From: a virus
DNA: 24,096 nt
Reading direction: 5' to 3' (one strand)
IMG/VR virus record: IMGVR_UViG_3300048879_000412
Location: 1 to 24,096 of that record
The position numbers were made by a program, and so were the translations under genes. The notes below the pieces were generated by a model. The model did not search any database and was not told the origin of the DNA. It was given only the letters and a program-made list of their open reading frames with translations. Positions 1 through 21,300 of this stretch are shown here, one piece after another. How positions within the stretch are numbered: the first letter of the stretch is position 1; each line of letters begins with the position of its first letter.

Positions 1-1104
1 TTGCACGATGTAGAAAAATTAAAAACCTACGCATTCCCTGAACCTGAGAAAAAAGAAAGCTCATCAGGTATAAAAAGTCTTACGGGAAAACAATACACGC
101 CAAAACAACATTTGCTACTTATCACCGCAGATGATTGGGAGGAGTTCGTCGTGGAATGGGGGACTTTTCAGAAAGACACCTATCACCTCGTTACTAGACT
201 GGGCGGCGCGTACGATAAAGGGATAGATGTCGCGTGTTTTTTAACTGGTGATGGATTTCAGGGGGAATGGCATAATTTTCAATGCAAATACTATAAGGGC
301 GATCCGCTTACGCCGCGCACTGCAGTTTCCGAAATAGGAAAGATTTTATGGCACATTTATTCAGGCGAAATTACCGCACCCTCTGCCTATTATTTTTTCG
401 CTCCGAAAGACTGTGGGCCATCTCTTAAGAAGCTTTTATTAAATATACCTGATCTAAAAGGCGAATTAATCAACAGATGGGAAGACTGGTGTTCAAAAAC
501 CATAACTTCTACTCAAACGATCTCGTTGGATGGAGATTTTGAAACATTTGTAAATGAGTTTGATTTTAGCATTTTTAAATTCAAGCCATTGGATGAGGTA
601 ATAGAAGAGCATAGGAAGACACCTTATTTTACCAATAGATTTGGTGGAGGACTACCGGACAGGCCTCCAGCCCAAACCCCTCCAACTGAAATCATGAATA
701 CTGAAACAAGATATGTAACACAGCTACACGAGGCTTACGCTGATCATCACAAGAAGCCGATAAATGAATTTGATTTAGAGCAGGACATAAACTTTAAACC
801 ACACTTTGATAGGCAAAGAGAGTCTTTTTATTCAGCAGAATCCCTAAGAACATTTGCGCGTGATTCTGTGCCTCCTGGCACTTATGAAGCACTAAAAAAT
901 GAAATGTATGATGGTGTGGTTGATACAGCTGAAACTGTGCACTCAGATGGCTACCAAAGGCTCACTGAGGTTTTGAAAGAAGCAAAGAACACGCCTTTAG
1001 ATTCTAACGAGCTAGTTCACGTTACAAAAGTGAAGGACAGATTCGGCATTTGCCACCAATTGGCTAATGAAGACAAATTAACCTGGGTAAAAAAAGATGG
1101 ATAA
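1..1104 (+). CDS. ABC-3C system effector: REase-like domain plus ABC-3C C-terminal domain
   Basis: Predicted nuclease effector of an ABC-three-component conflict system. The N-terminal part (about residues 40-130) reads as a restriction-endonuclease-like (Mrr-type) fold. A helix with W46-E47 precedes a Gly-rich turn, then D72-K-G-I-D76, and after a spacer Q94-C-K96, matching the D...QxK core. The C-terminal part (about 235-365) has the HF-RQRE-FYSAESLR and GICHQLANED signatures that I recognise from ABC-3C C-terminal domains. It overlaps the next gene by 8 bases, so the two are probably translationally coupled. The frame opens with TTG at the first base of the window, so the true start may lie upstream and the N-terminus may be incomplete. 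Base composition is clearly more AT-rich than the phage genes after 3461. The family assignment is from recalled motifs; cleavage activity is inferred. Confidence 0.75.
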   Translation: MHDVEKLKTYAFPEPEKKESSSGIKSLTGKQYTPKQHLLLITADDWEEFVVEWGTFQKDTYHLVTRLGGAYDKGIDVACFLTGDGFQGEWHNFQCKYYKGDPLTPRTAVSEIGKILWHIYSGEITAPSAYYFFAPKDCGPSLKKLLLNIPDLKGELINRWEDWCSKTITSTQTISLDGDFETFVNEFDFSIFKFKPLDEVIEEHRKTPYFTNRFGGGLPDRPPAQTPPTEIMNTETRYVTQLHEAYADHHKKPINEFDLEQDINFKPHFDRQRESFYSAESLRTFARDSVPPGTYEALKNEMYDGVVDTAETVHSDGYQRLTEVLKEAKNTPLDSNELVHVTKVKDRFGICHQLANEDKLTWVKKDG

Positions 1105-1597
1105 AGCATTAAAATCTGAGCATATCTTTAATAGCGCCATTGAGACAGGTATCCGATCGCTATGCATACTGGCTGAAGATACAGATATGCAATATGACTT
1201 ACAGCAACTTTTGGCATTTGATCATCTTGTAGTGCATACTGGTGATGTAGAGAATGCCCCACCTAGTTTGCACCCCAACATACTGCAACGTAACGGAGAG
1301 CTGTTGGTGCGACGCCCTCTTATTGAACGAGGGCTTTTGCTTATGGAGAGTAAAGGTTTATTAAAGCGCTCTATTAGCTCAGATGGCTTTTATTATTCAG
1401 CTACAGATTTAGCTACTGCATTCATAGATAGTTTGACTAACGAGTACATCATCGAATTGCGGGAACGTGCGCGATGGGCAGTAGAGAAATATAAGGATTA
1501 TGGAAATAGGTTTTTTGCAGAGGTATTTAATAATGCCTTTGATCGGTGGAGTGAAGAATTTCAGGTTGCTGAAATTTCAATAAAGCAGGCAAGCTAG
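1097..1597 (+). CDS. ABC-3C system middle component
   Basis: A 166-residue protein encoded between the nuclease-like effector and the SMC-like ATPase, the usual place of the ABC-3C middle component. Recognisable family features are the SLHP motif followed by GELLVRR (about residues 55-73), then a long helix ending in a glycine turn (ESKGLL). Next comes a short strand pair with the F-Y-Y-S-A-T pattern, which looks like a winged-helix wing, and a C-terminal helix with ELRERARW. No catalytic residues are apparent. The expected role is an adaptor linking the ATPase to the effector. The ATG overlaps the end of the upstream gene by 8 bases, and the gene stops 9 bases before the ATPase start, so all three are likely one transcript. 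The C-terminal residues after RARW are less typical. Confidence 0.75.
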   Translation: MDKALKSEHIFNSAIETGIRSLCILAEDTDMQYDLQQLLAFDHLVVHTGDVENAPPSLHPNILQRNGELLVRRPLIERGLLLMESKGLLKRSISSDGFYYSATDLATAFIDSLTNEYIIELRERARWAVEKYKDYGNRFFAEVFNNAFDRWSEEFQVAEISIKQAS

Positions 1598-1606
1598 GGT
1601 ACAGAT

Positions 1607-3442
1607 GTGGAATTAAGGTTTTTAAAATTTGTCGGGCCTAAGAAAGAACCAGCAGAAGTCTCTTTTGACTCTGGTTTAAACTTAATCTATGGGCCTTCAA
1701 ATACGGGGAAATCATCTATTTTAGATGCGATTGATTTCATGTTTGCTCGTGAACGTTCACTCAAGGAAATCCCTGAGCATGAGGGATATGATCAGATTTT
1801 TCTAGGAATTGAATTCTCTAACGACGAGCAATTTACTTTTGTACGTAATATTACTGGTGGCGATTATCAGTGCTTTCCTGGGCTTCATAAAGAAAAGCCT
1901 GAGGACTTAAAGCCTGATATACTAAAAGCGAAAAAAGCTACAAAGAAGCATCCTGCAATAACCGAGTTCATTCTACAAAGAATCGGGTTGGATAACAAAA
2001 AACTAAAGAAGAATGCTGATAACAAAACTATTAGCCTAACGCTTCGCAATTTGTTGCCACTCACCTTAATAAGCGAGACAAATATTCAAAAAGAAGGGTC
2101 TCCCTTTATTAGCGAACAATATACTGAGCAAACAGAGCATAAATCCAGATTAAAACTTCTTTTGACTGGGGTGGATGATAGCACTCTATTACCAGCTGAG
2201 GCAGAAAGTAGAAGGGTTTCATACAATGCTCGCATTGAGTTTATAGATGAACTAATAAACGAGCATTCAGAAAAAATTGAAAATGATATACCTGAAGATG
2301 ACTCGCAAGAAGAACTGCAGTCTCAAAGAGAAAAATTGTCTAAAACTATTGAGCGTGAACATTCGCTTTTAGAAAGTACGGAAGAACAATATGGCTTACT
2401 TATATCCGAAAGGACTGGTTTCCGAAAAGAACTAGAACAAAACGAAGAAAGAGAAGCTGAAATTTCGGAGATGCTTGGACGATTTAGCTTATTAAAAGAG
2501 CAATATCTTTCGGACATCAAACGACTGGAAAATATATGCGAGGCAGGCTCCATAATAGCCGTATTGCCTTCTGAGAAATGTCCTTTGTGTGGTAGCAAAG
2601 TTTCTGAGAGTCAAGAACACGAAAATTGTGATGGGAATTTGAAGGACATCGTAATTGCTGCGGAGTCAGAAAAAAGAAAGTTGGCAAAGCTATACGAAGA
2701 ATTGATGGATGCAATGAATCAGCTGAAGCTAGAGAAAAAAAATATACAAGATAAAATACCAAAAATCTCAAAGAACATTAGCTCCGTAAACGAAAAATTA
2801 TCTGAATTGAATCCCGAGTTATCATCCAAACGCAGAAATTATACAGATTTACTGGATATCAAATTGAGTATTGATCACTCTCTTGAAATGTTTGAGCAAT
2901 TAGGAAAATTGCAAGAAAAAAAGGCGGCTTTAGAAAAAAGTGCGCCAGAAGAAAAAGCCTCTGATTCCAGCGAAACTTCATTGCCAACAAAAGCGATCAA
3001 TGACCTTGCACAGTATTTAAAAGAATTGCTCGAAAACTGGCATTTTACAAATTCTGATAATGTTTATTTTGATAAAGAAACGGGTGACTTTGTAATTAGT
3101 GGGAAGCATAGAATTAGCAATGGTAAGGGGTATAGAGCAATCACCCATGCTGCTGCGACTTTGGCGCTTATGAAATTTTGTGAAGAAAGAGATCAAGCAC
3201 ACCCAGGATTTGTATTATTAGATTCTCCGCTTTTGGCATATGAGGAGCCAGATAATGAAGAAGATGATTTAACAGGTACGGATGTTAACAAAATGTTTTT
3301 TGATTACGTCAGCAACTGGAAATCTCGGCAAGTTATAATTTTCGAGAATAAAAAGTCTATCCCCAGTGAGTATGCTTCTGGAGAGCAGATCATACACTTC
3401 ACCAAAAATGAAACAGGAAGATACGGCTTCTTTCCAGTATAG
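1607..3442 (+). CDS. ABC-3C system ATPase (SMC/Rad50-like)
   Basis: A 611-residue ATPase of the SMC/Rad50/RecN type. Walker A is GPSNTGKSS at residues 29-37. Two long, charged, Glu/Lys-rich segments of coiled-coil character (about 195-320 and 340-450) flank a zinc-hook-like C325-P-L-C328. Walker B is GFVLLDSP (534-541, D539), followed by the DSPLLAYEE stretch. The C-terminus keeps an FEN motif in an ATPase-like core. Such proteins sense foreign or aberrant DNA and license the effector in ABC-3C systems (established family logic, Krishnan and co-workers' ABC ATPase classification). I choose GTG at 1607 because AGGG lies just upstream and the encoded N-terminus (MELRFLKFVG) fits the first strand of the ATPase fold. 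An ATG at 1605 is in another frame. Eighteen bases after its stop the composition changes to phage type. Confidence 0.85.
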   Translation: MELRFLKFVGPKKEPAEVSFDSGLNLIYGPSNTGKSSILDAIDFMFARERSLKEIPEHEGYDQIFLGIEFSNDEQFTFVRNITGGDYQCFPGLHKEKPEDLKPDILKAKKATKKHPAITEFILQRIGLDNKKLKKNADNKTISLTLRNLLPLTLISETNIQKEGSPFISEQYTEQTEHKSRLKLLLTGVDDSTLLPAEAESRRVSYNARIEFIDELINEHSEKIENDIPEDDSQEELQSQREKLSKTIEREHSLLESTEEQYGLLISERTGFRKELEQNEEREAEISEMLGRFSLLKEQYLSDIKRLENICEAGSIIAVLPSEKCPLCGSKVSESQEHENCDGNLKDIVIAAESEKRKLAKLYEELMDAMNQLKLEKKNIQDKIPKISKNISSVNEKLSELNPELSSKRRNYTDLLDIKLSIDHSLEMFEQLGKLQEKKAALEKSAPEEKASDSSETSLPTKAINDLAQYLKELLENWHFTNSDNVYFDKETGDFVISGKHRISNGKGYRAITHAAATLALMKFCEERDQAHPGFVLLDSPLLAYEEPDNEEDDLTGTDVNKMFFDYVSNWKSRQVIIFENKKSIPSEYASGEQIIHFTKNETGRYGFFPV

Positions 3443-4284: not shown

Positions 4285-5520
4285 ATGAAAGTCGAACTGA
4301 TCGAAATCGGTCGGGTGATTCCGTATGCGCGTAATCCCCGCAAGAATGAAGCTGCCATTGCCAAAGTAGCCGCCTCGATTAAGGAGTACGGTTTCCGCCA
4401 GCCTATCGTGGTGGATGAGGAAATGGTTATCATTGCGGGTCACACGCGCCTGCAGGCCGCGCAGACGCTGGCATTAAAGAAAGTCCCCGTGCATGTGGCT
4501 ACCGGCCTCACACCGGCGCAGATAAAGGCATACCGGCTGGCCGACAACCGCACACATGAAGACGCTGAATGGGACGAAGAACTGCTGGCGATTGAACTCG
4601 GTGAATTGAATGATCTGGGTTTCGATTTAGATCTGACCGGCTTTGATGCGATTGAACTGGAAGAGCTGCTCGATGGTGCAGCGATGGATGGATTAACCGA
4701 AGATGATGCCATTCCGGAAGCGCCGGAAGTGCCTGTCTCCAAGGAAGGTGATATCTGGCTGCTGGGTGATCACAAGCTGATCTGCGGTGACAGCACCAAG
4801 GCCAAGACTATGAAGGCGTTGATGGGTGACGAGCTGGCCGACATGGTGTTCACCGATCCACCCTACAATGTCGATTATGGTCAAACCATGAAAGACAACG
4901 TGCGCGGCACTAAGCGCAAAATCAAAAATGATAATCTCGGTGCGGATTTTAAGAAATTCCTCACAGATGCCTGCACTGAGATGGTGAAAGTCTGCAAGGG
5001 AGCTTTGTACATCTGCATGTCCTCCTCCGAACTACACACCCTCCACAGCGCCTTTGCAGATGCCGGTGGGAAGTGGTCGACCTTCATCATCTGGGGGAAG
5101 AATCACTTCACCATGGGTCGCTCCGATTATCAACGCCAGTACGAGCCGATCCTTTATGGCTGGCCGGAGGGCAATAAACATTTCTGGTGTGGTGCGCGTG
5201 ATCAAAGCGATCTGTGGCATTACGATAAACCGAAAAGCAACGATCTGCATCCGACCATGAAGCCGGTGGAGCTGGTGTGCCGTGCGCTCACGAACTCCAG
5301 TAAAACCAAGGATATCGTGCTGGACTCGTTTGGCGGCTCCGGCACAACCCTGATCGCTGCCGAGAAATTGCAACGTAGAGCGCGGTTGATTGAACTTGAT
5401 CCAGCCTATGTCGATGTGATTGTGCAGCGCTGGGAAGAGTTCACCGGCAAAAGCGCGATGCTTGCCGGTGAAAAGAAGTCCTTTAAGGACGTTGCTAAAA
5501 AGCGTCAGGCGGCTTCCTGA
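4285..5520 (+). CDS. ParB-domain DNA adenine/cytosine-N4 methyltransferase
   Basis: A 411-residue SAM-dependent DNA amino-methyltransferase with an N-terminal ParB/Srx-like domain. Residues 1-90 carry the ParB signature: NPRK at 17-20, then IKEYGFRQPIVVD and the AGHTRL box at 51-56. The catalytic domain follows: DPPY at 191-194 (motif IV), HPTMKP at 322-327, and the SAM-binding FGGSGTT at 349-355 with LIELDPAYVD after it. Motif IV before motif I indicates the beta class (N6-adenine or N4-cytosine). No cognate restriction gene is adjacent, so it is probably an orphan phage methylase that protects or marks phage DNA. The ParB part may bind DNA near the packaging site; that is inference. The start is supported by AGGAAAG eight bases upstream. 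The 3' end overlaps the convergent DUF3489 gene by 16 bases. Confidence 0.9.
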   Translation: MKVELIEIGRVIPYARNPRKNEAAIAKVAASIKEYGFRQPIVVDEEMVIIAGHTRLQAAQTLALKKVPVHVATGLTPAQIKAYRLADNRTHEDAEWDEELLAIELGELNDLGFDLDLTGFDAIELEELLDGAAMDGLTEDDAIPEAPEVPVSKEGDIWLLGDHKLICGDSTKAKTMKALMGDELADMVFTDPPYNVDYGQTMKDNVRGTKRKIKNDNLGADFKKFLTDACTEMVKVCKGALYICMSSSELHTLHSAFADAGGKWSTFIIWGKNHFTMGRSDYQRQYEPILYGWPEGNKHFWCGARDQSDLWHYDKPKSNDLHPTMKPVELVCRALTNSSKTKDIVLDSFGGSGTTLIAAEKLQRRARLIELDPAYVDVIVQRWEEFTGKSAMLAGEKKSFKDVAKKRQAAS

Positions 5521-8608: not shown

Positions 8609-8835
8609 GCATCACTGCAACACAGGCACAGGCCGCGCTCGATGCGTGGGTTGCTGCCGATCTCGCTGTAGCCAAGGGTCAAAGCTACACGATGAACGGG
8701 CGCTCGCTGACATTGGCAAATGCCAAAGAGATCAGAGAGCAGATTCAATATTGGGAACGTCGGGTGGCTGCCTTCGCGCAGACCGTCCAGCAAAATCAAC
8801 AAGCAGCATTAGCGGATTTTAGCGATGGCTATTAA
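8605..8835 (+). CDS. gpW-like / DUF6148 small head protein
   Basis: A 76-residue protein with the pattern AQAALDAWVAADLAVAKGQS, then SYTMNGRSLTLANAKEIREQ and a final helix IQYWERRVAAF. This is the form of DUF6148 proteins, which resemble the gpW head-completion protein of lambda and lie at the same place, between the large terminase and the portal. gpW closes the filled head and gives the tail a binding site. The reading frame is open from 8578, but ATG at 8605 is chosen because AAGGAGG lies seven bases upstream and overlaps the previous stop as ATGA. Its stop overlaps the portal start by 11 bases, so the three genes are coupled. Head joining is inferred from position and pattern. Confidence 0.75.
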   Translation: MSITATQAQAALDAWVAADLAVAKGQSYTMNGRSLTLANAKEIREQIQYWERRVAAFAQTVQQNQQAALADFSDGY

Positions 8836-10390
8836 TATTATAGACAAAACGATTGAGATTATCTCACCGGAGGCAGCGCTGCGCCGTGATACAGCACGCA
8901 AAGTGCTTAAAGCCCAGCGTGCCTATGAAGCCGCGCAGCCTTCGCGTCTGCGTAAAATCAAAACCGATTCAGGCTCCGGCGACGCTATTGTAGAGCGTGC
9001 CGGTGAATCTTTGCGCCTGCAGGCCCGTCACCTGGACGAAAACCACGATCTGGCCGGTGGGGTGCTGGATGTGCTGGTCAATAACGTGGTGGGACGTGGC
9101 GTAGCGGTCGAGCCGCAGGTCAAACTGAAAAACGGAGAGTTGGCTAAATCGGTTAACGATCAGCTGATGGAGCTATGGGAGGAATGGGTACGTTTTCCGG
9201 AAGTGACATGGGAAAGCCATTGGAATCACATGCTGCGCCTGCTGGCTCGGCACTGGTTCCGCGATGGTGAAGTGCTGGTAAAACACATCGAAGGCACTAA
9301 CGCCTCCATCGATCATGGGACGATTGTACCGTACTCGGTGGAAATGATCGAAGCAGATTTTCTGCCCTTCGATCTGAACGATACGAAAAAGAAGATTGTG
9401 CATGGTGTCGAGAAAAATGCATGGCGCAGGCCACGCGCCTATTACCTTTACAAGGAACATCCTGGCAATTCCCATACGCTGGTAACGCGGCAGGATGTTA
9501 AACGCTTCCCTGCTGAGAAGATGCTGCATCTGAAAATCACAAAGCGGATCAGCCAGACACGCGGTATTTCTGTCTTTGCCAGCGTGATGACGCGCATGGA
9601 GGACATCAAGGATTATGAGCTTTCGGAACGGCTGGCCGCAAAAGTGGCCGCCAGCATTTGTGCATTTATCCGCAAAAGCCTCGATGGGCCTGCCACCGGC
9701 GTACAGGTAGATGATGCTGGCCAGCGCCTCATGAAAATGCAGCCAGGTATGATCTTCGACAATCTGCTGCCTGGTGAGGAAGTCGGCATGATCGACAGCA
9801 ATCGCCCGAACACCATGCTGGAGCAGTTTCGCAATTCTCAACTGCGTGCGGTGGCTGCCGGTACGTCGACAGGCTACTCCTCGATATCGAAAGATTATCG
9901 CGGGACGTACTCCTCGCAGCGGCAGGAGCTGGTCGAGCAGTCGGTGCATTATGCCGTGCTGCGCGAGTATTTCATTGAGCGTTGCGTCCGCCCGATCTGG
10001 GAGCGATTCGTCACCATGGCGGTATTGTCTGGCCAGCTGAAGATCTCCGAAAATGAGATCAACAAAAGCACATTGATCAAAGCTGGATTCCAAGGGCCGG
10101 TGATGCCGTGGATCGACCCGCAGAAGGAAGCAGTCGCAGAGGAAAAACTCATCCAGGCCGGACTTAAGGCACGGGCGCAGTCTATCCGCGAACGTGGTGG
10201 TAATCCGCAGGAGACGTTTGAGCAAATCAAGCAGGAACGCGAGCAGGATAAAGAAGCGGGACTCACCTTCTCGACCAGCAATGGAGCTAAATCCGCAACA
10301 TCTAACCCAAAACAAGGAGAATCCGATGCCGAAGAAAACGACACCGACTCCGGAGAAGAAGAATCCGGAGCTACTGACACGAACGATTGA
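8825..10390 (+). CDS. Portal protein, lambda family
   Basis: A 521-residue protein forming the dodecameric vertex ring through which DNA enters and leaves and on which the capsid nucleates. Diagnostic segments of the lambda-type portal are ARHLDENHDLAGGVLDVLVN near residue 60, GRGVAVEP, WEEWVRFPEVTWE and HWFRDGEVLVKH. RGISVFASVMTRMEDIKDYE and GTSTGYSSISKDYRGTYSSQ (about 340-365) follow. The C-terminal 70 residues are hydrophilic, rich in Gln, Glu, Asp and Ser, and overlap the protease start. The full length matches the family. It overlaps the gpW-like gene by 11 bases and the next gene by 65 bases in another frame. The acidic tail probably contacts the protease or scaffold; that is inferred. 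Confidence 0.92.
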   Translation: MAINIIDKTIEIISPEAALRRDTARKVLKAQRAYEAAQPSRLRKIKTDSGSGDAIVERAGESLRLQARHLDENHDLAGGVLDVLVNNVVGRGVAVEPQVKLKNGELAKSVNDQLMELWEEWVRFPEVTWESHWNHMLRLLARHWFRDGEVLVKHIEGTNASIDHGTIVPYSVEMIEADFLPFDLNDTKKKIVHGVEKNAWRRPRAYYLYKEHPGNSHTLVTRQDVKRFPAEKMLHLKITKRISQTRGISVFASVMTRMEDIKDYELSERLAAKVAASICAFIRKSLDGPATGVQVDDAGQRLMKMQPGMIFDNLLPGEEVGMIDSNRPNTMLEQFRNSQLRAVAAGTSTGYSSISKDYRGTYSSQRQELVEQSVHYAVLREYFIERCVRPIWERFVTMAVLSGQLKISENEINKSTLIKAGFQGPVMPWIDPQKEAVAEEKLIQAGLKARAQSIRERGGNPQETFEQIKQEREQDKEAGLTFSTSNGAKSATSNPKQGESDAEENDTDSGEEESGATDTND

Positions 10391-12293
10391 TCTCACGCGA
10401 GAATCGATTGTTGACGAAGAGAGCCGCCTTGTGCGGCTTTCTTTTTCCTCTGAAGAGCCGGTCACCCGCGCTTCATTTTTCAGTGAGCCGTGGATCGAAG
10501 TGCTGGGCCATGAGCGCAGCGAGGTTGATCTGCAGCGCCTGAATAACAGCGCTCCGGTGCTTTATAACCATGATCGCACCGAGCGCGGCAACCGTATCGG
10601 CGTGGTGGAACGTGCATGGGTCGAAGGTGGCCGTGGCTATGCCGAAATCCGCTTAAGCAAACGCGATGAGGTGGAAGGCTTCTGGCAGGACGTTAAGGAT
10701 GGCATCCTGCGTAATGTTTCCGTGGCTTACCGCATCAACGAGCGCAAGCTGGAAGAGGAAAACAAAGACAAACCAGATCTGTATCGAGTGACCAGCTGGA
10801 CACCGATGGAGATATCGCTGGTCGATATTCCCGCTGATCCCACCGTTGGGGTTGGTCGGAGTGCCGAGGATGATGCTCCTGACGAGCGCAGCCTTGATTA
10901 TCAACCCCAACTTAAACCAAAGGAGAAAACTATGCCTGATAAAGTCGTAGAAAAAGAAACGCCGGAGCGTAAGGAGTCGCCGCAAGTCGATGAAAAGCGC
11001 AAAGGCGAAATCATGGATGAAGGTGCAAAACGCGCACTGGAAACCGAGAAAGCACGCCGCACTGAGATTCGTAAGCTGTTTGAAGGCCACGATGATCACT
11101 CAGGCGTACGTGATCAATGCCTGGACGATCCGGAAATTGATGTCAATGAAGCCCGTAAGCTGCTGCTGGATGCTATCGGCAAGGATGAAAAGCCTGCCGC
11201 TAACGGCCAGCGTGTGGAAATGGGTGAAACCGATGTCGAGAAATTCAGCCGTGCGGCTGAAGACGCGATCGCCTTCCGTGCTGGTATTGCTGACGAAAAC
11301 GTGCAGCGCACCGAGCTTTATGGTTACACGCTGTTTGAGATGGCGCGTAAATGCTTGGAGATGCGCGGTATTCGTACCGAGCGTATGGATAAGCGTGAGC
11401 TGGTGGGCCGTGCCTTTACGCACAGCACATCTGATTTTCCGAAGATTCTGGAAAACAACTCCCGCAAGGCCATGCTGCGTGGTTATGACGAAGCGGAAGA
11501 AGTGTTCCCTCGCTTCACTCGTGCCGGTAACCTGTCCGACTTCAAACAGCACAGCCGTGTTGGTCTGGGTACGTTTGATACGCTGGATGAGATTCCGGAA
11601 AGCGGTGAATACAAGCACGGCACGATCGGTGAACGGGCGGAAAGCATTAAGCTGGCCACCTACGGTAAGCTGTTCAGCATTTCTCGCCAGGCAATCATCA
11701 ATGATGACTTAAGTGCATTTACCGATATCCCGCGCAAGATGGGCCGCGCTGCTGCCCGTACCGTGGGTGATCTGGTGTTTGCGATCATCAACGCCAACCC
11801 GACCATGAGCGATGGCACGGCACTCTTCCACGCCGATCACAGCAACCTGGCTGGCTCCGGCGCTGCGCCGACCGCTGCCACGGTGGGTGCTGGTCGTACA
11901 GCCATGCGGACACAAAAGGATGGTAAGGCAGTGCTGAATATCAGCCCTGAATTCTTCCTTGTGCCTGCAGCGCTGGAAGATACTGCCAAAGTGCTGATGG
12001 CATCAGAAACCGATCCATCCAAAACCAACAGCCGTATTCCGAACCCTGTTCGTAATGCTGCCGAGGTGGTGGTGGATGCACGTTTGGATGCGGCTTCACT
12101 CACGGCCTGGTATCTGCTGGCCGATCCGAATCGTTTCGATACGATCGAGGTGGGCTATCTGGATGGTGTGGCTGCACCGTTCCTTGATCAGCAGGAAGGT
12201 TGGACGATCGACGGTGTCGAGTACAAGGTACGCATCGATGCGGCGGCAGCGCCACTCGAGTTCCGTACCATGTACAAAAACGCTGGCACTTAA
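10326..12293 (+). CDS. Prohead protease / major capsid protein fusion
   Basis: A 655-residue single frame combining the maturation protease with the shell subunit. Residues about 34-178 are HK97-type prohead protease: SFSSEEPV, LNNSAPVLYNHDR (H82), ILRNVSVAYR (S132) and WTPMEISLVDIPADPTVGVG (E162 is the candidate third residue). A charged linker (about 180-300) looks like a scaffold or delta domain. The rest (about 300-655) is the HK97-fold capsid with the Mu gpT-like ALFHADHSNLA, RNAAEVVVDARLDA and VDQQEG-type end. The frame is open from 10194, but ATG at 10326 has AAGGAG seven bases before it; the segment upstream overlaps the portal in another frame. Such fusions are known. A second strong start lies at 10932 in the same frame. 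Confidence 0.9.
   Translation: MPKKTTPTPEKKNPELLTRTIDLTRESIVDEESRLVRLSFSSEEPVTRASFFSEPWIEVLGHERSEVDLQRLNNSAPVLYNHDRTERGNRIGVVERAWVEGGRGYAEIRLSKRDEVEGFWQDVKDGILRNVSVAYRINERKLEEENKDKPDLYRVTSWTPMEISLVDIPADPTVGVGRSAEDDAPDERSLDYQPQLKPKEKTMPDKVVEKETPERKESPQVDEKRKGEIMDEGAKRALETEKARRTEIRKLFEGHDDHSGVRDQCLDDPEIDVNEARKLLLDAIGKDEKPAANGQRVEMGETDVEKFSRAAEDAIAFRAGIADENVQRTELYGYTLFEMARKCLEMRGIRTERMDKRELVGRAFTHSTSDFPKILENNSRKAMLRGYDEAEEVFPRFTRAGNLSDFKQHSRVGLGTFDTLDEIPESGEYKHGTIGERAESIKLATYGKLFSISRQAIINDDLSAFTDIPRKMGRAAARTVGDLVFAIINANPTMSDGTALFHADHSNLAGSGAAPTAATVGAGRTAMRTQKDGKAVLNISPEFFLVPAALEDTAKVLMASETDPSKTNSRIPNPVRNAAEVVVDARLDAASLTAWYLLADPNRFDTIEVGYLDGVAAPFLDQQEGWTIDGVEYKVRIDAAAAPLEFRTMYKNAGT
10422..10446 (+). 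terminator. Terminator-like hairpin inside the protease gene (doubtful)
   Basis: AGCCGC (10422-10427) pairs with GCGGCT (10433-10438) around CTTGT, and a pyrimidine run TTTCTTTTTCC follows. The shape is that of a weak intrinsic terminator, but it lies in coding sequence for the conserved SRLVRLSFSSEEP segment, so codon choice could explain it. It begins 32 bases after the portal stop. Confidence 0.3.
10919..10925 (+). promoter_or_regulatory. Strong internal ribosome binding site for capsid domain
   Basis: AAAGGAG followed by AAAACT and ATG, with the same spacing as at the start of the DUF2190, tail tube and DUF2793 genes. The bases just before it (CAACCCCAACTTAAACC) are also like the spacers in front of those genes, although here they are translated. 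This is why I list the capsid portion as a second start. Confidence 0.65.
10932..12293 (+). CDS. Probable separately initiated major capsid protein (internal start)
   Basis: This is an alternative product from the same frame as the protease fusion. Codon 203 of the fusion is ATG at 10932, preceded by AAAGGAG (10919-10925) with a six-base spacer. The leader resembles the true starts at 12369, 13576 and 22099. The 453-residue product would begin MPDKVVEKE, keep the charged scaffold-like segment and the whole capsid domain, and lack the protease. Shell protein is needed in hundreds of copies and protease in few, so a strong internal start would set the ratio, as with nested C/Nu3 in lambda. The start signal is seen directly. 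That both forms are made is inference. Confidence 0.6.
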   Translation: MPDKVVEKETPERKESPQVDEKRKGEIMDEGAKRALETEKARRTEIRKLFEGHDDHSGVRDQCLDDPEIDVNEARKLLLDAIGKDEKPAANGQRVEMGETDVEKFSRAAEDAIAFRAGIADENVQRTELYGYTLFEMARKCLEMRGIRTERMDKRELVGRAFTHSTSDFPKILENNSRKAMLRGYDEAEEVFPRFTRAGNLSDFKQHSRVGLGTFDTLDEIPESGEYKHGTIGERAESIKLATYGKLFSISRQAIINDDLSAFTDIPRKMGRAAARTVGDLVFAIINANPTMSDGTALFHADHSNLAGSGAAPTAATVGAGRTAMRTQKDGKAVLNISPEFFLVPAALEDTAKVLMASETDPSKTNSRIPNPVRNAAEVVVDARLDAASLTAWYLLADPNRFDTIEVGYLDGVAAPFLDQQEGWTIDGVEYKVRIDAAAAPLEFRTMYKNAGT

Positions 12294-12321: not shown

Positions 12322-12342
12322 AGCGGCTTCGAGCCGCTTTTT
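12322..12342 (+). terminator. Intrinsic terminator after the capsid gene
   Basis: AGCGGCT (12322-12328) and AGCCGCT (12332-12338) form a perfect 7-bp GC-rich stem with a TCG loop, followed directly by TTTTT. It sits 29 bases after the capsid stop and 26 bases before the DUF2190 gene, in the middle of the late operon, with no clear promoter after it. Confidence 0.85.
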
Positions 12343-12368: not shown

Positions 12369-12701
12369 ATGGCAACTAACTACATCCAAGAGGGCAAAGC
12401 CCTCAACTACACCCCGTCCGGCGCAGATGTGTCTTCGGGTGATCTGGTGATCATGAGCGCTATTGCTGGTATCGCCAAAACCGATATCGCCGATGGCAAA
12501 ACCGGCGCTGTACACATTTCTGGTGTATTCAGCGTGGCAAAAGCCACTGGTGCAGTAGCGCAAGGCGCAAAGCTGTACTGGAACAGCAGCAACAGCAATC
12601 TCACCACTACCGCATCCGGTAATACGCTGGTGGGTGTGGCTGCAGCAGCAGCGCTTTCGGGCGATGCCACGATCCCACTGCTTCTCAACGTGGGTTTGTA
12701 A
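12369..12701 (+). CDS. DUF2190 capsid decoration/fibre-like protein
   Basis: A 110-residue, mostly beta-strand protein of the DUF2190 family. Recognisable parts are the N-terminal YIQEGKALNYT, the GADVSSGDLVIMSA-IAGIA segment, the AVHISGVFSVAKATGAVAQG segment, and the GAKLYWNSSNSNLTTTASGN-TLVGVAAAAA ending. Members lie immediately after the major capsid gene in many phages and are thought to decorate or stabilise the shell, as gpD does in lambda. The start has AAAGGAG (12355-12361), and a terminator hairpin separates it from the capsid gene. The stop is two bases before the next ATG. The family call is firm by pattern; the decoration role is inferred from position. Confidence 0.85.
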   Translation: MATNYIQEGKALNYTPSGADVSSGDLVIMSAIAGIAKTDIADGKTGAVHISGVFSVAKATGAVAQGAKLYWNSSNSNLTTTASGNTLVGVAAAAALSGDATIPLLLNVGL

Positions 12702-14358: not shown

Positions 14359-14489
14359 CGCTGGCATGGCGGCTTTCTCGGCCTTTGGCTGAGATTGAAG
14401 CCATGTCACCGCAGCAATTCATGGAATGGGTCGCTTTTTTCGAACTTCAATCAGAAAACTTGAGTAAAAAACATGGCAAGATTCGGTAG
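13981..14489 (+). CDS. Tail assembly chaperone GT product by -1 frameshift
   Basis: Translation to K113-G-N on the G frame, then a -1 slip on GGGAAAC (14319-14325), continues from CTC at 14325 in the other frame to TAG at 14487-14489. The result is a 169-residue protein. The added 54 residues include LALAWRLSRPLAEIEAMSPQ and FMEWVAFFEL, which matches the usual T-domain composition of lambdoid GT proteins (WRL...P..E...M...FMEW..FF.L). The T frame has a stop just upstream of the heptamer (TAA at 14315-14317), so only slippage in this place makes the fusion. The end overlaps the tape measure start by 17 bases. The heptamer, phase and open frame are seen directly; the slip itself is inferred from the conserved mechanism. 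Confidence 0.85.
14319..14325 (+). promoter_or_regulatory. Programmed -1 ribosomal frameshift site GGGAAAC
   Basis: The heptamer has X XXY YYZ form with the zero frame reading AAG GGA AAC. It sits 33 bases before the zero-frame stop. Lambda uses GGGAAAG at the same place. No strong downstream hairpin is evident by eye. Confidence 0.85.
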
Positions 14490-16371
14490 TGCAGAATTTG
14501 TCATCCGTGCCGTAAATAAAACGCAGAAAACCTTCGCCCAGATTGGTCAGGGCGTGGATAATATGGATCGGCGTTTTTCCAAGCTCGGACGTGGCGTCAG
14601 TCGTTTAGGCGGCTTAATGGCCACCGCGTTCGTGGGCAAACAGGTGGTGGATGTCATCACCAAGTTTGAGAAGCTGGAAGCCTCTTTACGGACGGTGACA
14701 GGATCAGCTGAAAAAGCCAGTGTTGCGTTTGGATTTATTCAGGAATTTGCGGCCACCACTCCCTTTCAGTTGGAGGAAGTGACCGATGCCTTTATCAAGC
14801 TGAAGGCGCTGGGGCTGAATCCATCTGAGGAAGCATTGACCTCCTACGGTAATACGGCGGTGGCGATGGGCAAAAGCCTTAATCAGATGATTGAGGCGGT
14901 GGCAGATGCCGCCACTGGTGAGTTTGAGCGTCTGAAGGAATTTGGTATTAAAGCCAAGTCCCAAGGCGATCAGGTTACCTTCACTTTCCAGGGCGTGAGC
15001 ACCACGGTGGGTAAAAATGCCAAGGAGATTGAAGAATTCCTACGCTCTATAGGTGATGTGCAGTTTGCTGGTGCGATGGATGAGCAAGCCGATACGCTCA
15101 ATGTTTCATTATCCAACATGGGCGATGCCTTCTCCAAGCTGGTAAAAGCGATCGGCGATGCCGGATTGACCGATCTGTTGCAGATGATCGCCGATGGTGT
15201 CAAATGGCTGGCCGAGCAGATCACCAATTCGATTGAGCCTTTTAAGTTGGGTTTCAAGGCGATCATAGCCGAGGTGATAAAGTTCGGTAATCTCTTTATT
15301 GCCGTATTCAAAGGTGTGGGCCGTGCGTTCCAGGCTTTTGGCGAAACAATATCCGCTCGGTTTGAAGCGCTGGGCAAAGACCTGGCTGCCTTCATTGAAG
15401 ACCCGCTGGGTGGCGTATCGTTTGAAAATACCCGCGATGCGCTGGAGACCGGCCTGCTGGATGCAATGGGTAATGCCTTTGATAAGGCGCTGGAAGAAGC
15501 GCGGGAATTCAACGCCGCGATCGATGCAGAGATTCAGGATGCCACACTCAAAATTTATGAGGCACGGCAAAAGAAAAATGCATCGCTGGGAGATCTGTTC
15601 GAGGAAACGGAAACACCAGAAAAAACCGAGGAAACCAACAAGCAGACGGAGAAATTTAGCAAGCTGCAGCGCGAGGCGCAGCGCATCATCGAAGCCACGC
15701 GCACGCCGCTGGAACGCTACAACAAGGAAATGGAGCTGCTCAACAAGCTGCTGAAGGAAGGCCATATCAACCAGGAAACCTTCGGTCGTGCCATGGAGCA
15801 AGCCCAGGAGAAGCTGAAAAAGTCCTCGGAAAAAGCCGGTGATGTGATCAGCGATAGTTTCGGTGATTTAGGCAAAACCATGGAAGGCACAGTGGCCGAT
15901 GCGCTTGATGGCATCAGTGGCCGCTTTGATAGTTTCGGCGATTTTGCCAAAGGCTTCCTGTCCGATCTTAACCGCCAACTGCTGCAATTTGCCCTGAAGG
16001 ATTTGGGCATTACCGGCGAAGGTGGAATTATCGGTCAGATATTCAATGGCATTGGTGGTCTCTTCGGTGGCTCTGGTGGCGGTGGTGGAAGTGGGCTTGG
16101 CGGTCTTATATCGAGTGCTGCGAGTCTATTTGGTGGCTTCTTCGCCGATGGTGGCACGCTCAAAGCCGGTCAATTCGGCGTGGTGGGTGAAAACGGGCCG
16201 GAGCTGGCATTTGCTGGTTCGCATCCTCTGCAGATCGCACCGAATGGTGGTTCACCCATTACCGTTAACATGAGTGTGCAGACACCGGACGTGCAGAGCT
16301 TCCGGCAGAGCCAAAGCCAACTGGCGGCTGATATGGCGCGGTCGATTGATCGTGCAAGGAGGAATCTATGA
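14473..16371 (+). CDS. Tail tape measure protein
   Basis: A 632-residue helical protein that sets tail length and leaves the tail during infection. The N-terminal 250 residues match the tape measure family: KTFAQIGQGVDNMDRRFSKL, GLMATAFVGKQVVDVITKFE, LRTVTGSAEKASVAFGFIQE, FAATTPFQLEEVTDAFIKLK and LNVSLSNMGDAFSKLVKAIG. The middle is alpha-helical and charged. Near 535-570 a Gly/Ser-rich segment is followed by FFADGGTLKAGQFGVVGENG-PELAF, a common C-terminal module of these proteins. At about 1.5 angstroms per residue (the usual ratio) a tail of roughly 95 nm is expected. It overlaps the GT end by 17 bases and the next gene by four (ATGA). Confidence 0.92.
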   Translation: MARFGSAEFVIRAVNKTQKTFAQIGQGVDNMDRRFSKLGRGVSRLGGLMATAFVGKQVVDVITKFEKLEASLRTVTGSAEKASVAFGFIQEFAATTPFQLEEVTDAFIKLKALGLNPSEEALTSYGNTAVAMGKSLNQMIEAVADAATGEFERLKEFGIKAKSQGDQVTFTFQGVSTTVGKNAKEIEEFLRSIGDVQFAGAMDEQADTLNVSLSNMGDAFSKLVKAIGDAGLTDLLQMIADGVKWLAEQITNSIEPFKLGFKAIIAEVIKFGNLFIAVFKGVGRAFQAFGETISARFEALGKDLAAFIEDPLGGVSFENTRDALETGLLDAMGNAFDKALEEAREFNAAIDAEIQDATLKIYEARQKKNASLGDLFEETETPEKTEETNKQTEKFSKLQREAQRIIEATRTPLERYNKEMELLNKLLKEGHINQETFGRAMEQAQEKLKKSSEKAGDVISDSFGDLGKTMEGTVADALDGISGRFDSFGDFAKGFLSDLNRQLLQFALKDLGITGEGGIIGQIFNGIGGLFGGSGGGGGSGLGGLISSAASLFGGFFADGGTLKAGQFGVVGENGPELAFAGSHPLQIAPNGGSPITVNMSVQTPDVQSFRQSQSQLAADMARSIDRARRNL

Positions 16372-16967
16372 GTTTTGAAGAAGTACAATTCCCAAGCGAT
16401 ATCTCCTATGGCGCAACGGGTGGGCCGATGTTTCTTACCGATGTGGTGTCAACCGTATCCGGCCATGAGCAGCGTAACAGTAAATGGAGTCAAGCGCGTG
16501 CCAAATACAATGTCGCTTCTGGTGTAAAAACCGAAACGCAATGGCAGGCGCTGATTTCCTTTTTCCGTGCGCGGCGTGGTAAGGCGGTAGGCTTCCGCTT
16601 CAAAGATTGGAGCGATTACAAGGCCGAAAGCGTGCAGATCGGCGTGGGTGATGACAGCACCACCGAGTTCCAGCTGGTGAAGATTTACTCCAGCGGAAGC
16701 GTGGCGGTTTCCCGCACCATCACCAAGCCGGTGTCCGGCACGGTAGATATCTATGTCGACTCGGTGCTGCAGAGCAGCGGCGTGAGCGTGGACACCACCA
16801 CCGGCGTTGTGACCTTCAGCTCGGCTCCGGCTTTGGGCGAAGTGATCACCGCCGAGTTTGAATTTGATGTGCCGGTACGCTTTGACACCGATGAGATGGC
16901 CGTTTCGATGGACAGCTTCGATGCAGGCAACTGGAGCAGCATCCCACTAATTGAGGTAAGAATATGA
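16368..16967 (+). CDS. DUF2460 distal tail protein (GTA gp12-like)
   Basis: A 199-residue protein with the DUF2460 signature: the opening FEEVQFPSDISYGATGGPMF, then VVSTVSGHEQRNSKWSQARA, ASGVKTETQWQALISFFRAR, and RGKAVGFRFKDWSDYKA. The C-terminal half has the beta strands PVSGTVDIYVDSVLQSSGVS, TGVVTFSSAPALGEVITAEF and FDVPVRFDTDEMAVSMDSFD. In the Rhodobacter gene transfer agent the homologue forms the distal tail ring joining the tube to the hub. The start has AAGGAGG seven bases before ATG. It is coupled to both neighbours by ATGA overlaps. The family is clear by pattern; its position in the tail is transferred from GTA. Confidence 0.9.
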   Translation: MSFEEVQFPSDISYGATGGPMFLTDVVSTVSGHEQRNSKWSQARAKYNVASGVKTETQWQALISFFRARRGKAVGFRFKDWSDYKAESVQIGVGDDSTTEFQLVKIYSSGSVAVSRTITKPVSGTVDIYVDSVLQSSGVSVDTTTGVVTFSSAPALGEVITAEFEFDVPVRFDTDEMAVSMDSFDAGNWSSIPLIEVRI

Positions 16968-17827
16968 GAGTAATATCTCCACAGTTGGAGGCGCACTTTG
17001 ATGGTGGGCTGCAGACGCTGGCTACTTGCTGGAAAATTACCCGCGAGGATACCACCGAGATGGGCTTTACCGATCATGACGAAATGCTTAACGTAGACAG
17101 CCTGGATTACGACTCTATCGCCGGATTTACACCCACCACGGTGGAGAATAAATCCAATATGTCGGTGGACAACCTCGATGTGGAAGGTCAGGTTTTCCCT
17201 TCGAAGATCACCGAGGAAGATCTGCTGGCCGGTCTGTATGATTATGCCGAGATTGAGATTTTCGTCGTTAATTACGAAGATCTGTCACAGGGCAAACTGA
17301 TCATCAAACGTGGGCGGCTGGGTGAAGTGACGCTCAACAGCCAGATGTTTCAAGCAGAGGTGCGCGGCCTGACACAGCACCTATCACAGACCATCGGTGA
17401 TGTATTTTCTCCTTCCTGCAGAGCCATCCTTGGTGATTCCAAATGCAAGGTGGCACTGGCTGGGTTTACCGTCTCCACCACCGTCAGCGAGGTGGTTAAT
17501 AACCAGACCTTCAAGGCGAGCGCCCTCACAGAGGACGCAGGATGGTACACTGGTGGCGAAGTGGTCTGGACATCCGGCAACAACGCCGGTCGCCGCATGG
17601 AGGTGAAGGAGTTCGCTTCCACTCAGGTGGTGCTGGCGCTGCCAATGGGTAAAAGCATTCAGGCCGGAGACGGATTCGATATCATCGCTGGCTGCGATAA
17701 GACCCGCGAAACCTGCCAGAGCAAATTTTCCAACATTATTAACTTTCGCGGTGAGCCGGATGTACCTGGCGTTGACAAGCTGCTCACCACGGCTGGCACT
17801 TTAGACAAAACCAATCGCAATGGGTAA
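16964..17827 (+). CDS. DUF2163 tail hub protein with Fe-S cysteines (GTA gp13-like)
   Basis: A 287-residue protein of the DUF2163 / BR0599 family. The N-terminus has LATCWKITREDTTEMGFTDH, then LDYDSIAGFTPTTVENKSNM-SVDNLDVEG. The C-terminal part has paired cysteines: C152 and C161 in PSCRAILGDSKC, and C244 and C251 in GCDKTRETC, followed by FSNIINFRGEPDVPG. In the GTA tail-tip structure the hub protein holds an iron-sulfur cluster with these four cysteines, and gpL of lambda is also a Fe-S protein; all four are kept here. It is coupled to DUF2460 by an ATGA overlap. It should join the tail tip and the peptidase. Confidence 0.9.
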   Translation: MRVISPQLEAHFDGGLQTLATCWKITREDTTEMGFTDHDEMLNVDSLDYDSIAGFTPTTVENKSNMSVDNLDVEGQVFPSKITEEDLLAGLYDYAEIEIFVVNYEDLSQGKLIIKRGRLGEVTLNSQMFQAEVRGLTQHLSQTIGDVFSPSCRAILGDSKCKVALAGFTVSTTVSEVVNNQTFKASALTEDAGWYTGGEVVWTSGNNAGRRMEVKEFASTQVVLALPMGKSIQAGDGFDIIAGCDKTRETCQSKFSNIINFRGEPDVPGVDKLLTTAGTLDKTNRNG

Positions 17828-17833
17828 TGAGCA

Positions 17834-18319
17834 ATGACCTACATCAAACCTGAAGAAATAGTGGCGCAGGCCCGCACCTGGCTGGGTACAAAATATCATC
17901 ACCAAGGGCGGCTGAAGAAGTCGTCCTCCGGCCCAGGTGGGTGTGATTGCCTTGGGCTGATAATTGGCGTGATTGATGAGCTTGGCCTTCAGGATGGCGA
18001 AGGCAATGCGCTCACCAATGCCGATGAATTCAACTACTCAATGTATCCGGAGCGCGGCAGGCTGGTGAGCAGCATTGGCAAGCACCTCCGGCAAGTTCCG
18101 ATCGAACAGATGGCGGTGGGCGATGTCCTGCTGTTCAAAACGTTCAAAGACCCGCAGCATGTGGCGCTGCTGTCGCAGTATCCAGGCAATGGCCCTGGCA
18201 TTATTCACTGCAACTCCAGCGCCGGTCAGGTGGTCGAGCAGCCTCTCTCCATGACGTGGGTGAAGATGCTGACGCATGTATATCGTTTCAAAAAGAAACA
18301 ACTCAAATCGATTAAGTAA
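17834..18319 (+). CDS. NlpC/P60 tail-tip cysteine peptidase (GTA gp14-like)
   Basis: A 161-residue protein of the NlpC/P60 fold, expected to cut peptidoglycan stem peptides at the tail tip during DNA entry. The N-terminal helix has VAQARTWLGTKYHHQGR. The nucleophile lies in GGCDCLGLIIGVIDELG (C39), and the histidines are in DPQHVALLSQ (H109) and GIIHCNSSAG (H125). A short linker VGDVLLFKTFKDPQ is typical. The gene lies between the hub and the TIM-barrel tip protein, as in GTA clusters. The ribosome site before ATG at 17834 is weak; coupling with the previous stop six bases away is likely. No signal peptide is present, in keeping with a virion protein. Confidence 0.88.
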   Translation: MTYIKPEEIVAQARTWLGTKYHHQGRLKKSSSGPGGCDCLGLIIGVIDELGLQDGEGNALTNADEFNYSMYPERGRLVSSIGKHLRQVPIEQMAVGDVLLFKTFKDPQHVALLSQYPGNGPGIIHCNSSAGQVVEQPLSMTWVKMLTHVYRFKKKQLKSIK

Positions 18320-18324
18320 AAACT

Positions 18325-21300
18325 ATGGCTGATATTGTTTTACCTGTTGCTGGTGGTGTCGTTGGCTTTGTGCTGGGCGGCCCGTCCGGTGCTATCCTTG
18401 GCGCGAATCTGGGCGCTATGGCGGCTGGCACCTTCTTCCCGACCACGCAGCGGGTGCAATTGCCAACGCAGGAAGGCCCACGTCTTGCCGATTTGAGAGC
18501 GCAGACCTCCACCTACGGGAATATGATCCCGAAAGTGTATGGCACGATGCGGCTGGCCGGTAATGTCATCTGGTCGACCGATATCAAGGAAGTAAAAACC
18601 GAGAAAACCACCACGCAGACCAGCTCCGGTGGCGGTAAAGGTGGTGGCGGTGGGAAAACCACGACCAGCCAGACCACCGTGACTTATGAGTATTTTTGCA
18701 CGCTGGCAATCGCCGTGTGCGAAGGCCCGATCGACGAAGTGATCCGTGTGTGGGCTGACAGCAAGGTATTAACCGAAGATGTGCTGTCTGCAGCGCAGGG
18801 CAAGTACAACGTCCATCTGGGCGATGAAGACCAGGTGGTTGATGATATCATGGCCAAATATCTCACGGCTGGTACGATTCCGGCCTATCGTGGCATGGCC
18901 TATGTGGTGATTGAGGATTTCCCGCTGGCCGAATACGGCAACCGGATTCCCAACTTCACCTTCGAAGTGCGCCGGTCAGTGAAATTCACACCAAGCGTGG
19001 AAGACAAGATCACCGATATTGTCATCATTCCTGGCGCAGGTGAAATGGTCTATGGCACCAGCATTCAGACCAAGCAGGATGGTTATTTCCCCGTTGGCGG
19101 AGGCTTTACACCATCGGGCGATAAGAAACTCATCAACATGCATAATTATGAAGGTGTAGCCGATGCAATCGTCGCTGTAGATCAGGCAATCGATGTGCTG
19201 CCAAATCTGGAATGGGTGGCGGTGGTGGTGACATGGTTTGCCACCAGCACTGATGCCGGAGATTGCGAGATTATCCCAAAAGTGGAGTTCCAGGGCACCA
19301 CACAGGTATTGCCACAGGATTGGAATGTGGCAGGCATCAACCGCGCTTCAGCCGAGGTGGTGTTAAAGTTTGATCCGGAAACCCCGACCTATGGCGGCAC
19401 ACCCTCCGACCATACGGTGGTGCAGATCGTGGATCACCTGAAGTCCAAGGGCTTGAATGTGATGCTGTATCCGATGATTTTCGTGGATACGATCACGCCC
19501 GTACCGAAACCGTGGCGTGGCCGGATTGAGCCTGCCAATGCCACCGATGCTAATAGCTGGTTTACCAAAACCAACGGCTATAATGCCTTTATCACCCATT
19601 ACGCCAATCTGGTGAAAAATAAGGTGGATGCATTTGTCATCGGCTCGGAGCTGATCGGCATGACCGGCTTTACTGATACGCCAGGCAATTATCCGGCAGT
19701 GAATCAGTTGGTTTCGCTGGCCGCCACTGTCAAAGGCATCATGGGCGGCAGCACGGATATTACCTACGCTGCCGATTGGAGTGAATATCACAGCACTGGT
19801 GGCTGGTTTAACCTCGATCCGCTCTGGGCATCCAGCAACATTGATTTTGTAGGAATCGACAGCTATTTTCCTATCACCGAAGATCTGCCGCAAATTCAGA
19901 TTACCGAAGAGCTGATTCAGGAATATTGGGAAAAAGGCGAAGGCTGGGACTATTACTACACCGATTCGGTCGCTCGTACCGGACAAACCAGCTATGGCGG
20001 CAATCCAACCTATGCCTGGAAGAATCTGGAGCATTGGTGGAATAGCACGCATACCAATCCGGATATGAGTGGTACCAGCTGGACAGCGAAGATGAAGCCG
20101 GTCTGGTTTACCGAATTCGGCTTCCCCAGCGTTGATGGCTGCGCCAATCAGCCGAATGTGTTTTACGATCCGACCTCCAGCGAGAGCTTTTACCCTCGTG
20201 GGTCTAAAGGCCGCATCGACTTTCAGGCACAGCGCGAGGCGCTCAATGCCACGCTGGATTATCTGGATGCACGCAATCAGGAATCCGGCAAGAGCGATCT
20301 GGTACCACGCCGCTTTCTCTGGACGTGGGATGCTCGGCCATTTTCCTTCTGGCCAGATCTGGAAGGCGTGTGGCAGGATTCCATTTTATGGGCTACCGGC
20401 CATTGGGTGCAAGGCAAGCTGGGCAATTCCACGCTGGGTGCGATCGTGGCAGAAATTCTGCAGATGGCTGGACTTTCCGGCAGTGATTATGATGTGTCAC
20501 GGCTTACTGATACGGTGGAAGGGTTTATCATCGATCGCCCGATCACGGTACGCAATGCGCTGGAATACCTGACCACCGGCTTTTTCTTTGATGTGGTGGA
20601 AAGCGATGGCATTCTGAAATGTGTGCCACGCGGCAACGAATCGGTCAAAGCCGTGCCGGAGGATGATCTACTCCCCAGCAATAAGAAAGGCGTGCAGGAT
20701 ATTCTGGAGATCAACTACGCACAAGAGCTGGAACTGCCGCAACGGGTGAATGTGACCTATCTGGATCGGCCTTTTAATTACGATCCGGTGACGCAAACCT
20801 CGCAGCGCCAGACAGTGAGAGCCGTTGATCAGGTCACGATGAATCTGCCGATTGTGATGGGCGCAACGCTGGCTAAAAAGATCGCCGATGTCACCTTGTA
20901 TGGCACATGGAAGGAACGCACCAGCTTTCAGCTGAAGCTGCCGCCGCGCTATGTCCGGATTGAGCCAACCGATGTCATCACTGTGACGGTGAATGGCGTT
21001 GGGCATGAAATGCGGGTGGTAAAAACCGATATGGAAGCCAACGGTGTGATGAAAGTCAACGCTGTGGCCGAAGATATCAGCAGTTACGACTTTTACACTC
21101 CGCCTGGCGAAACCAGCTCCAACCTCCAGCCTCCGGCGCTGGTGCCGGATACAATTGTGAAGTTCATCGATGCACCGCCATTGCCGACCGATACAGTTCC
21201 CAATCAGGGACTGCTGCGGATCGGCGTGGCGGCAGATGGGCCGAACTGGAACGGATCGGCAGTCTATCGTTCTGACGATGGTGGCGAGGCAGGTGGTAAC

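Follow-up and report, generated by a model that had tools for sequence, protein, structure and literature searches.

An in-frame internal start at the protease-scaffold joint of a phage protease-capsid fusion gene, conserved among related fusions, points to a nested two-product gene

Phage heads contain hundreds of capsid subunits as against far fewer proteases, and a gene in which the two are fused seems to break this rule. Nested starts for proteases and scaffolds are textbook knowledge. In lambda and Mu, protease and scaffold share one frame and the scaffold is made from an in-frame internal start, annotated in the records inside the protease gene (nu3 within C, Z within I), whereas the capsid (E and T, respectively) has a separate gene. 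In herpesviruses, UL26 and UL26.5 give a protease-scaffold and the scaffold alone from one frame, with a protease of the S78 fold class, but the short form has a transcript of its own and no capsid protein is fused to it. HK97 has in common with the locus described here an S78-type protease (gp4) and an N-terminal delta scaffold on an HK97-fold capsid (gp5), but encodes protease and capsid in separate genes.

Fusion families as such are already known and named, and a fused "major capsid and protease" has been reported earlier, for example in PMC8601537 and PMC12760985. The names of NF045541 and PHROG 4523 describe a single fusion protein, and the descriptions compared do not mention an internal start. 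No report of an internal start in a protease-capsid fusion was found in a literature search, which is weak evidence because the search covered few subscription papers.

The window, i.e. the whole stretch of DNA analysed here, is 24,096 bases long, the length of its virus record, and no RNA family and no tRNA were detected in it. The frame 10326-12293 is open throughout and translates into 655 amino acids, with no stop codon between scaffold and capsid (Table 1). The protein matches, over nearly its full length, the NCBIfam family NF045541 "prohead protease/major capsid protein fusion protein" (665.7 bits over residues 29-654, above the curated cut-off of 525 bits) and PHROG 4523 "major head and protease protein". 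Matches to the Pfam families Peptidase_S78 and Phage_capsid_4 were also found. The gene lies between the portal and the cement protein genes, and by their coordinates the last 65 bases of the portal gene overlap its start in a different frame. His82 and Ser132, the catalytic pair of the protease, are invariant in 38 aligned relatives, so that the catalytic residues appear intact in the sequence. The closest relatives are found in alphaproteobacterial MAGs, mostly Rickettsiales, with protein identities of 97% (L040) and 94% (L041); phage DNA near-identical to the window was not found among the GenBank phages.

Table 1. Features of the fusion gene and its neighbours (window positions)
Feature	Position	Strand	Basis
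Portal protein gene	8825..10390	+	TIGR01539, E 2.9e-110
AAGGAG, Shine-Dalgarno sequence of the full-length fusion (start ATG 10326)	10314..10319	+	Sequence; predicted SD energy -8.5
Protease-scaffold-capsid fusion gene, 655 aa	10326..12293	+	NF045541, E 7.7e-200; PHROG 4523, E 4.5e-197
S78 prohead protease domain, residues 24-182	10395..10871	+	Pfam PF04586; alignment; confident predicted fold
Linker, residues 183-228, predicted disordered, poorly conserved as protein, carries the internal start	10872..11009	+	pLDDT <50 for residues 183-231
AAAGGAG, internal Shine-Dalgarno sequence	10919..10925	+	Sequence; kept in relatives
Putative second product from ATG 10932: scaffold (delta) + capsid precursor, 453 aa	10932..12293	+	Conservation; corresponds to the unfused capsid gene of split relatives
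Helical scaffold/delta domain, residues 229-300, possibly Nu3-like	11010..11225	+	Predicted helices; profile match to lambda Nu3
Major capsid domain, HK97 fold	11226..12290	+	PF25209, PF10124; PDB 8rkx, 9jod by sequence; HK97-fold capsids by fold
Terminator-like hairpin + T run, between capsid and cement genes	12322..12342	+	Similar element in relatives
Cement (head decoration) protein gene	12369..12701	+	PF09956, E 3.7e-29

The ATG at 10932 is codon 203 of the fusion (Met203), and AAAGGAG lies six bases upstream of it. The initial annotation had called this a strong in-frame internal start and had noticed that the bases before it copy the spacer pattern of the intergenic regions; both observations held. 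The extended pattern AAAGGAGAAAA-N(0-4)-[A/T]TG has four matches in the window, as against 0.01 expected, and besides 10932 these are the ordinary starts of the genes at 12369, 13036 and 22099. The ribosome site of the cement gene is nearly identical to the internal one. Furthermore, of the 103 ATG sites in the region 8.8-13.5 kb, 96% are less open than the stretch from the Shine-Dalgarno sequence (SD) to the ATG at 10932. In the AlphaFold model, the start is located in the disordered linker between the protease and a helical scaffold, which is followed by the HK97-fold capsid. Met230 (position 11013) was rejected as an alternative start, as it is preceded only by a weak AAGG and lies in a structured stretch.

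Having an in-frame internal start with a ribosome site at the protease/scaffold joint, the gene 10326-12293 very likely belongs with the nested two-product genes of lambda (C/Nu3) and Mu (I/Z), as a form in which the capsid is fused to the scaffold. The two-product logic would parallel that of both systems, and that of herpesvirus UL26/UL26.5, and to judge from the sequence the gene would work like C/Nu3, but as a fused variant. Unlike in lambda and Mu, the capsid is not encoded separately, and the internal start would make the capsid itself. That this product would have a scaffold-like N-terminus, as initially proposed, is supported. Residues 229-287 are all helical in the AlphaFold model (helices at 229-251, 256-267 and 273-287), and the scaffold domain shows some resemblance to the Nu3 part of lambda C: the S78-class profile scores 22.5 bits, and hhalign gives E 9.7e-5, as against 0.05 or worse for 40 shuffled controls. 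No signal of homology was obtained with the scaffolds of Mu (Z), JBD30 and Blf4. The capsid domain lies in the same frame (PF25209, E 2.2e-61), with fold matches to the capsids of HK97, D3 and Mu, and the closest capsids by sequence are of the Mu gpT type.

Initiation at 10326 would give the full protease-scaffold-capsid fusion, and initiation at 10932, which ribosomes presumably use, a scaffold-capsid precursor of 453 amino acids without the protease. This precursor would correspond to what split relatives encode in a capsid gene of its own, and to a precursor like that of HK97 gp5. The short product would build the procapsid with the scaffold inside, and the long fusion would co-assemble through its own capsid domain and thereby carry the protease into the shell. 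The protease would then remove the scaffold part and itself during maturation. If used, the conserved internal start would resolve the ratio problem with one gene and without a separate targeting signal for the protease.

A comparison with unfused relatives, which the initial annotation had suggested, showed that the starts of split capsid genes coincide with the internal ATG of fused genes. In the Faecalibacterium phage FP_Epona (gp38/gp39), protease, scaffold and capsid belong to the same families as in the window, but a stop codon separates protease and capsid into two genes. The same is found in 71 related split loci of this clade from gut Firmicutes, in which the capsid gene begins at the joint and its ribosome site overlaps the stop of the protease. 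Within this mostly split clade, L322/L339 and L347/L350 are fused, and keep ribosome site and ATG. The capsids of split L327 and fused L322 are 95% identical; ribosome site and ATG are unchanged between them, and their junctions differ only by small spacer changes. An error of one base in a homopolymer could make L322 look fused, but the fusions of L339 and L347/L350 are found in different contigs and with different spacers. This shows that the start of the split capsid gene is the same as the internal start of the fused gene, and that the frame can switch in either direction while leaving this start intact. Natural fused/split switches of this kind are seen among near gut-phage relatives (L322, L339, L347 and L350 as against L327, L328 and L332). 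Closer to the window, all intact relatives are fused and no split relative was found. Two candidates were discarded: L182, seemingly a split ClpP relative, is an artefact of Ns in the contig, and in L004 a single in-frame TAG interrupts the scaffold part, away from the joint, which is probably an assembly or sequencing error or marks a dead copy.

The joint is also a boundary at which modules have been exchanged. The fusion family NF045540/PHROG 133, which includes Pseudomonas phage F10 and phage mEp213, shares its scaffold and capsid half and the position of the internal start with the window protein, but its N-terminal protease is ClpP-like and unrelated to that of the window. Residue 199 of the window protein is where the match to the NF045540 profile (502.5 bits) begins, which indicates that the same scaffold-capsid half is joined here to two unrelated proteases. 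No ClpP-like protease was found in the N-terminus of the window protein, where Pfam identifies an S78 protease. At least four switches of protease type are seen on the capsid tree, in which L051 (S78) and L059 (ClpP) form a fully supported sister pair. A precise recombination breakpoint at the start could not be upheld for this pair, as their scaffold parts have diverged and the DNA becomes similar only within the capsid domain. Conversely, in R4C, VP882, RcCronus and ep3, the S78-scaffold half is joined to a different capsid family, and a clear internal ATG with SD is present at codons 189 (R4C), 185 (VP882) and 190 (RcCronus). The solved capsid of R4C (PDB 8gta) comprises residues 362-629 of the fused frame, so the mature shell contains neither protease nor scaffold.

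How the start arose is a separate matter. The initial annotation proposed that an intergenic region before a separate capsid gene became coding when the protease lost its stop, and that the relic start is still used. The match of the bases before 10932 to real intergenic ribosome sites fits this history, as do L322/L339 and L347/L350, which are fused among split relatives and have kept the same start. For the lineage of the window, however, the proposal found no support: all intact relatives near it are fused, and the fusion persists with S78 as well as with ClpP proteases. In a tree rooted on the archaeal virus Blf4, the split forms are nested within the fused ones, with an unsure root because Blf4 is a long branch. 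Moreover, protease-scaffold frames whose capsid gene stands apart have the internal start as well. For example, in Blf4 the protease-scaffold frame has AGGAG and an ATG at codon 198, at the same joint. Overall, we consider the loss of a stop a rather unlikely origin. Because the same start is present in lambda, Mu and Blf4, in which protease and scaffold share a frame and the capsid is separate, it may predate the capsid fusion. The simplest history may therefore be that the start was inherited from a nested protease/scaffold gene of the C/Nu3 or I/Z kind, to the end of which the capsid gene was probably joined later. In lambda itself, the strongest SD by scan in gene C (L371) precedes the ATG of codon 309, at the protease/scaffold joint, and not the annotated nu3 start (codon 239), which may be worth checking.

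Conservation of the start was assessed in fused genes collected from viral contigs, genomes and phage records, which were classified with profiles for S78 protease, ClpP protease and capsid. Clustering of 266 fused loci at 90% DNA identity resulted in 145 representatives, 92 of the S78 and 53 of the ClpP type; as they are related to each other, the counts given below are not independent events. We scanned the 70 codons after the protease, with 70-codon windows elsewhere in the same genes as controls. An in-frame ATG with an SD of at least 4 nt was present in 96% of both the S78 and the ClpP types, as against 11% and 13% of the control windows. With at least 5 nt, the values were 75% (S78) and 45% (ClpP), as against 0.9% and 2.2%. 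Out of frame, SDs of at least 5 nt were rare (S78 7% in +1 and 0% in +2; ClpP 4% and 2%).

If only the full-length product were made, every subunit would carry the protease, proteolysis would produce the mature capsid, and the SD-like stretch would be a by-product of a linker rich in Lys-Glu and ending in Met. The frame is indeed open throughout, and the protease would free all capsid copies anyway; the R4C shell, with residues 362-629, fits cleavage from either precursor. In 200 shuffles of synonymous codons, the amino-acid composition alone gave an SD of at least 4 nt in about 60 of the 92 S78 genes (mean; 30 of 53 for ClpP). These means are well above zero, so part of the signal comes from the amino-acid make-up (Lys-Glu before Met), and nucleotide choice adds the rest. 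However, the observed counts were higher (88/92 and 52/53), and none of the 200 shuffles reached them; for the S78 type, 88/92 with at least 4 nt and 69/92 with at least 5 nt compare with shuffle maxima of 70 and 46. A chance SD is thus rejected by the frame, control-window and synonymous-shuffle tests.

The pattern of variation among relatives also speaks against a single product. In about 20 close relatives, AGGAG and ATG are constant in a linker whose protein sequence is otherwise free to vary, and within the group of the window 22 of 27 distinct members keep GGAG and an in-frame ATG at the right distance, with 20 different junction peptides. In L062 and L134, GTG stands in place of ATG and AAGGAG is retained, which a need for methionine in the protein would not account for. 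There are exceptions: L014 and L047, which are closely related and come from two assemblies, carry AAG at the position of the ATG with no good substitute, as a single-product gene would allow, and L156 and L185 have weak SDs. The AAG codon (L014:566 and L047) represents a natural loss of the internal start position. Among the enterobacterial ClpP fusions, codons of a conserved peptide overlap the SD, and coding constraint could therefore explain part of the conservation there. Across the 145 representatives, the internal start appears conserved beyond protein constraint, and in frame only. Together with the split relatives, whose capsid gene starts at the joint, this makes a single full-length product rather improbable.

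The initial annotation further proposed a rare fusion and an abundant capsid. The comparisons support two products from one gene, inasmuch as a conserved in-frame start would yield the capsid precursor, but they do not bear out the claimed ratio. Predicted SD strength is equal at both starts of the window (-8.5 kcal/mol at 10326 and -8.7 kcal/mol at 10932), and in 15 annotated relatives, with means of -5.0 for the fusion start and -7.0 for the internal one, neither start is consistently stronger. SD strength therefore fails as a guide to the abundant product. It is very improbable that the internal start serves mainly for re-initiation or coupling, or is used only at a low level: the overlap of portal gene and fusion start by 65 nt is a coupling-prone arrangement and SD strength is equal at both starts, but the site at 10932 is open and strong by itself, and since the fusion frame has no stop near it, no ribosomes would terminate there to feed classical coupling.

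Extending the nested two-product reading from the window to fused protease-capsid genes in general, we find it somewhat favoured that these genes commonly make two products. The internal start would provide most of the capsid, and the long form would be a minority subunit that carries the protease into the procapsid by its capsid domain. Retention of this arrangement would extend over two unrelated proteases, two or more capsid families and several phyla of bacteria, and the annotated N-terminus of the capsid would be wrong in hundreds of phage records. If true, the start of the capsid protein would need correction in many annotated phages, and the exchange of proteases at the joint would be explained. 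It would also link the capsid fusions to the classical nested genes C/Nu3 of lambda and I/Z of Mu.

Several further features of the window were observed. The terminator-like hairpin at 12322-12342 sits inside the late operon, and a similar element was found 3' of 28 of 142 related fusion genes, as against 55 of 2900 random windows (~2%); it may have a role in setting the amount of the capsid message. Adjoining the phage head genes, positions 1-3442 carry matches to defence-type ABC-three-component (ABC-3C) systems, namely CTD6 (1-1104), the middle component MC2 (1097-1597) and an AAA ATPase (1607-3442). At 4285-5520, an N6/N4 DNA methyltransferase is fused to a ParB-N domain. The tail genes at 14473-22077 are similar to those of the Rhodobacter gene transfer agent (RcGTA), with matches to the RcGTA tape measure profile, DUF2460, a phiJL001 Gp84-like hub protein and a GTA TIM-barrel protein of 1250 amino acids. 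The combination of an RcGTA-like tail with lambda/Mu-like head genes indicates a mosaic phage.
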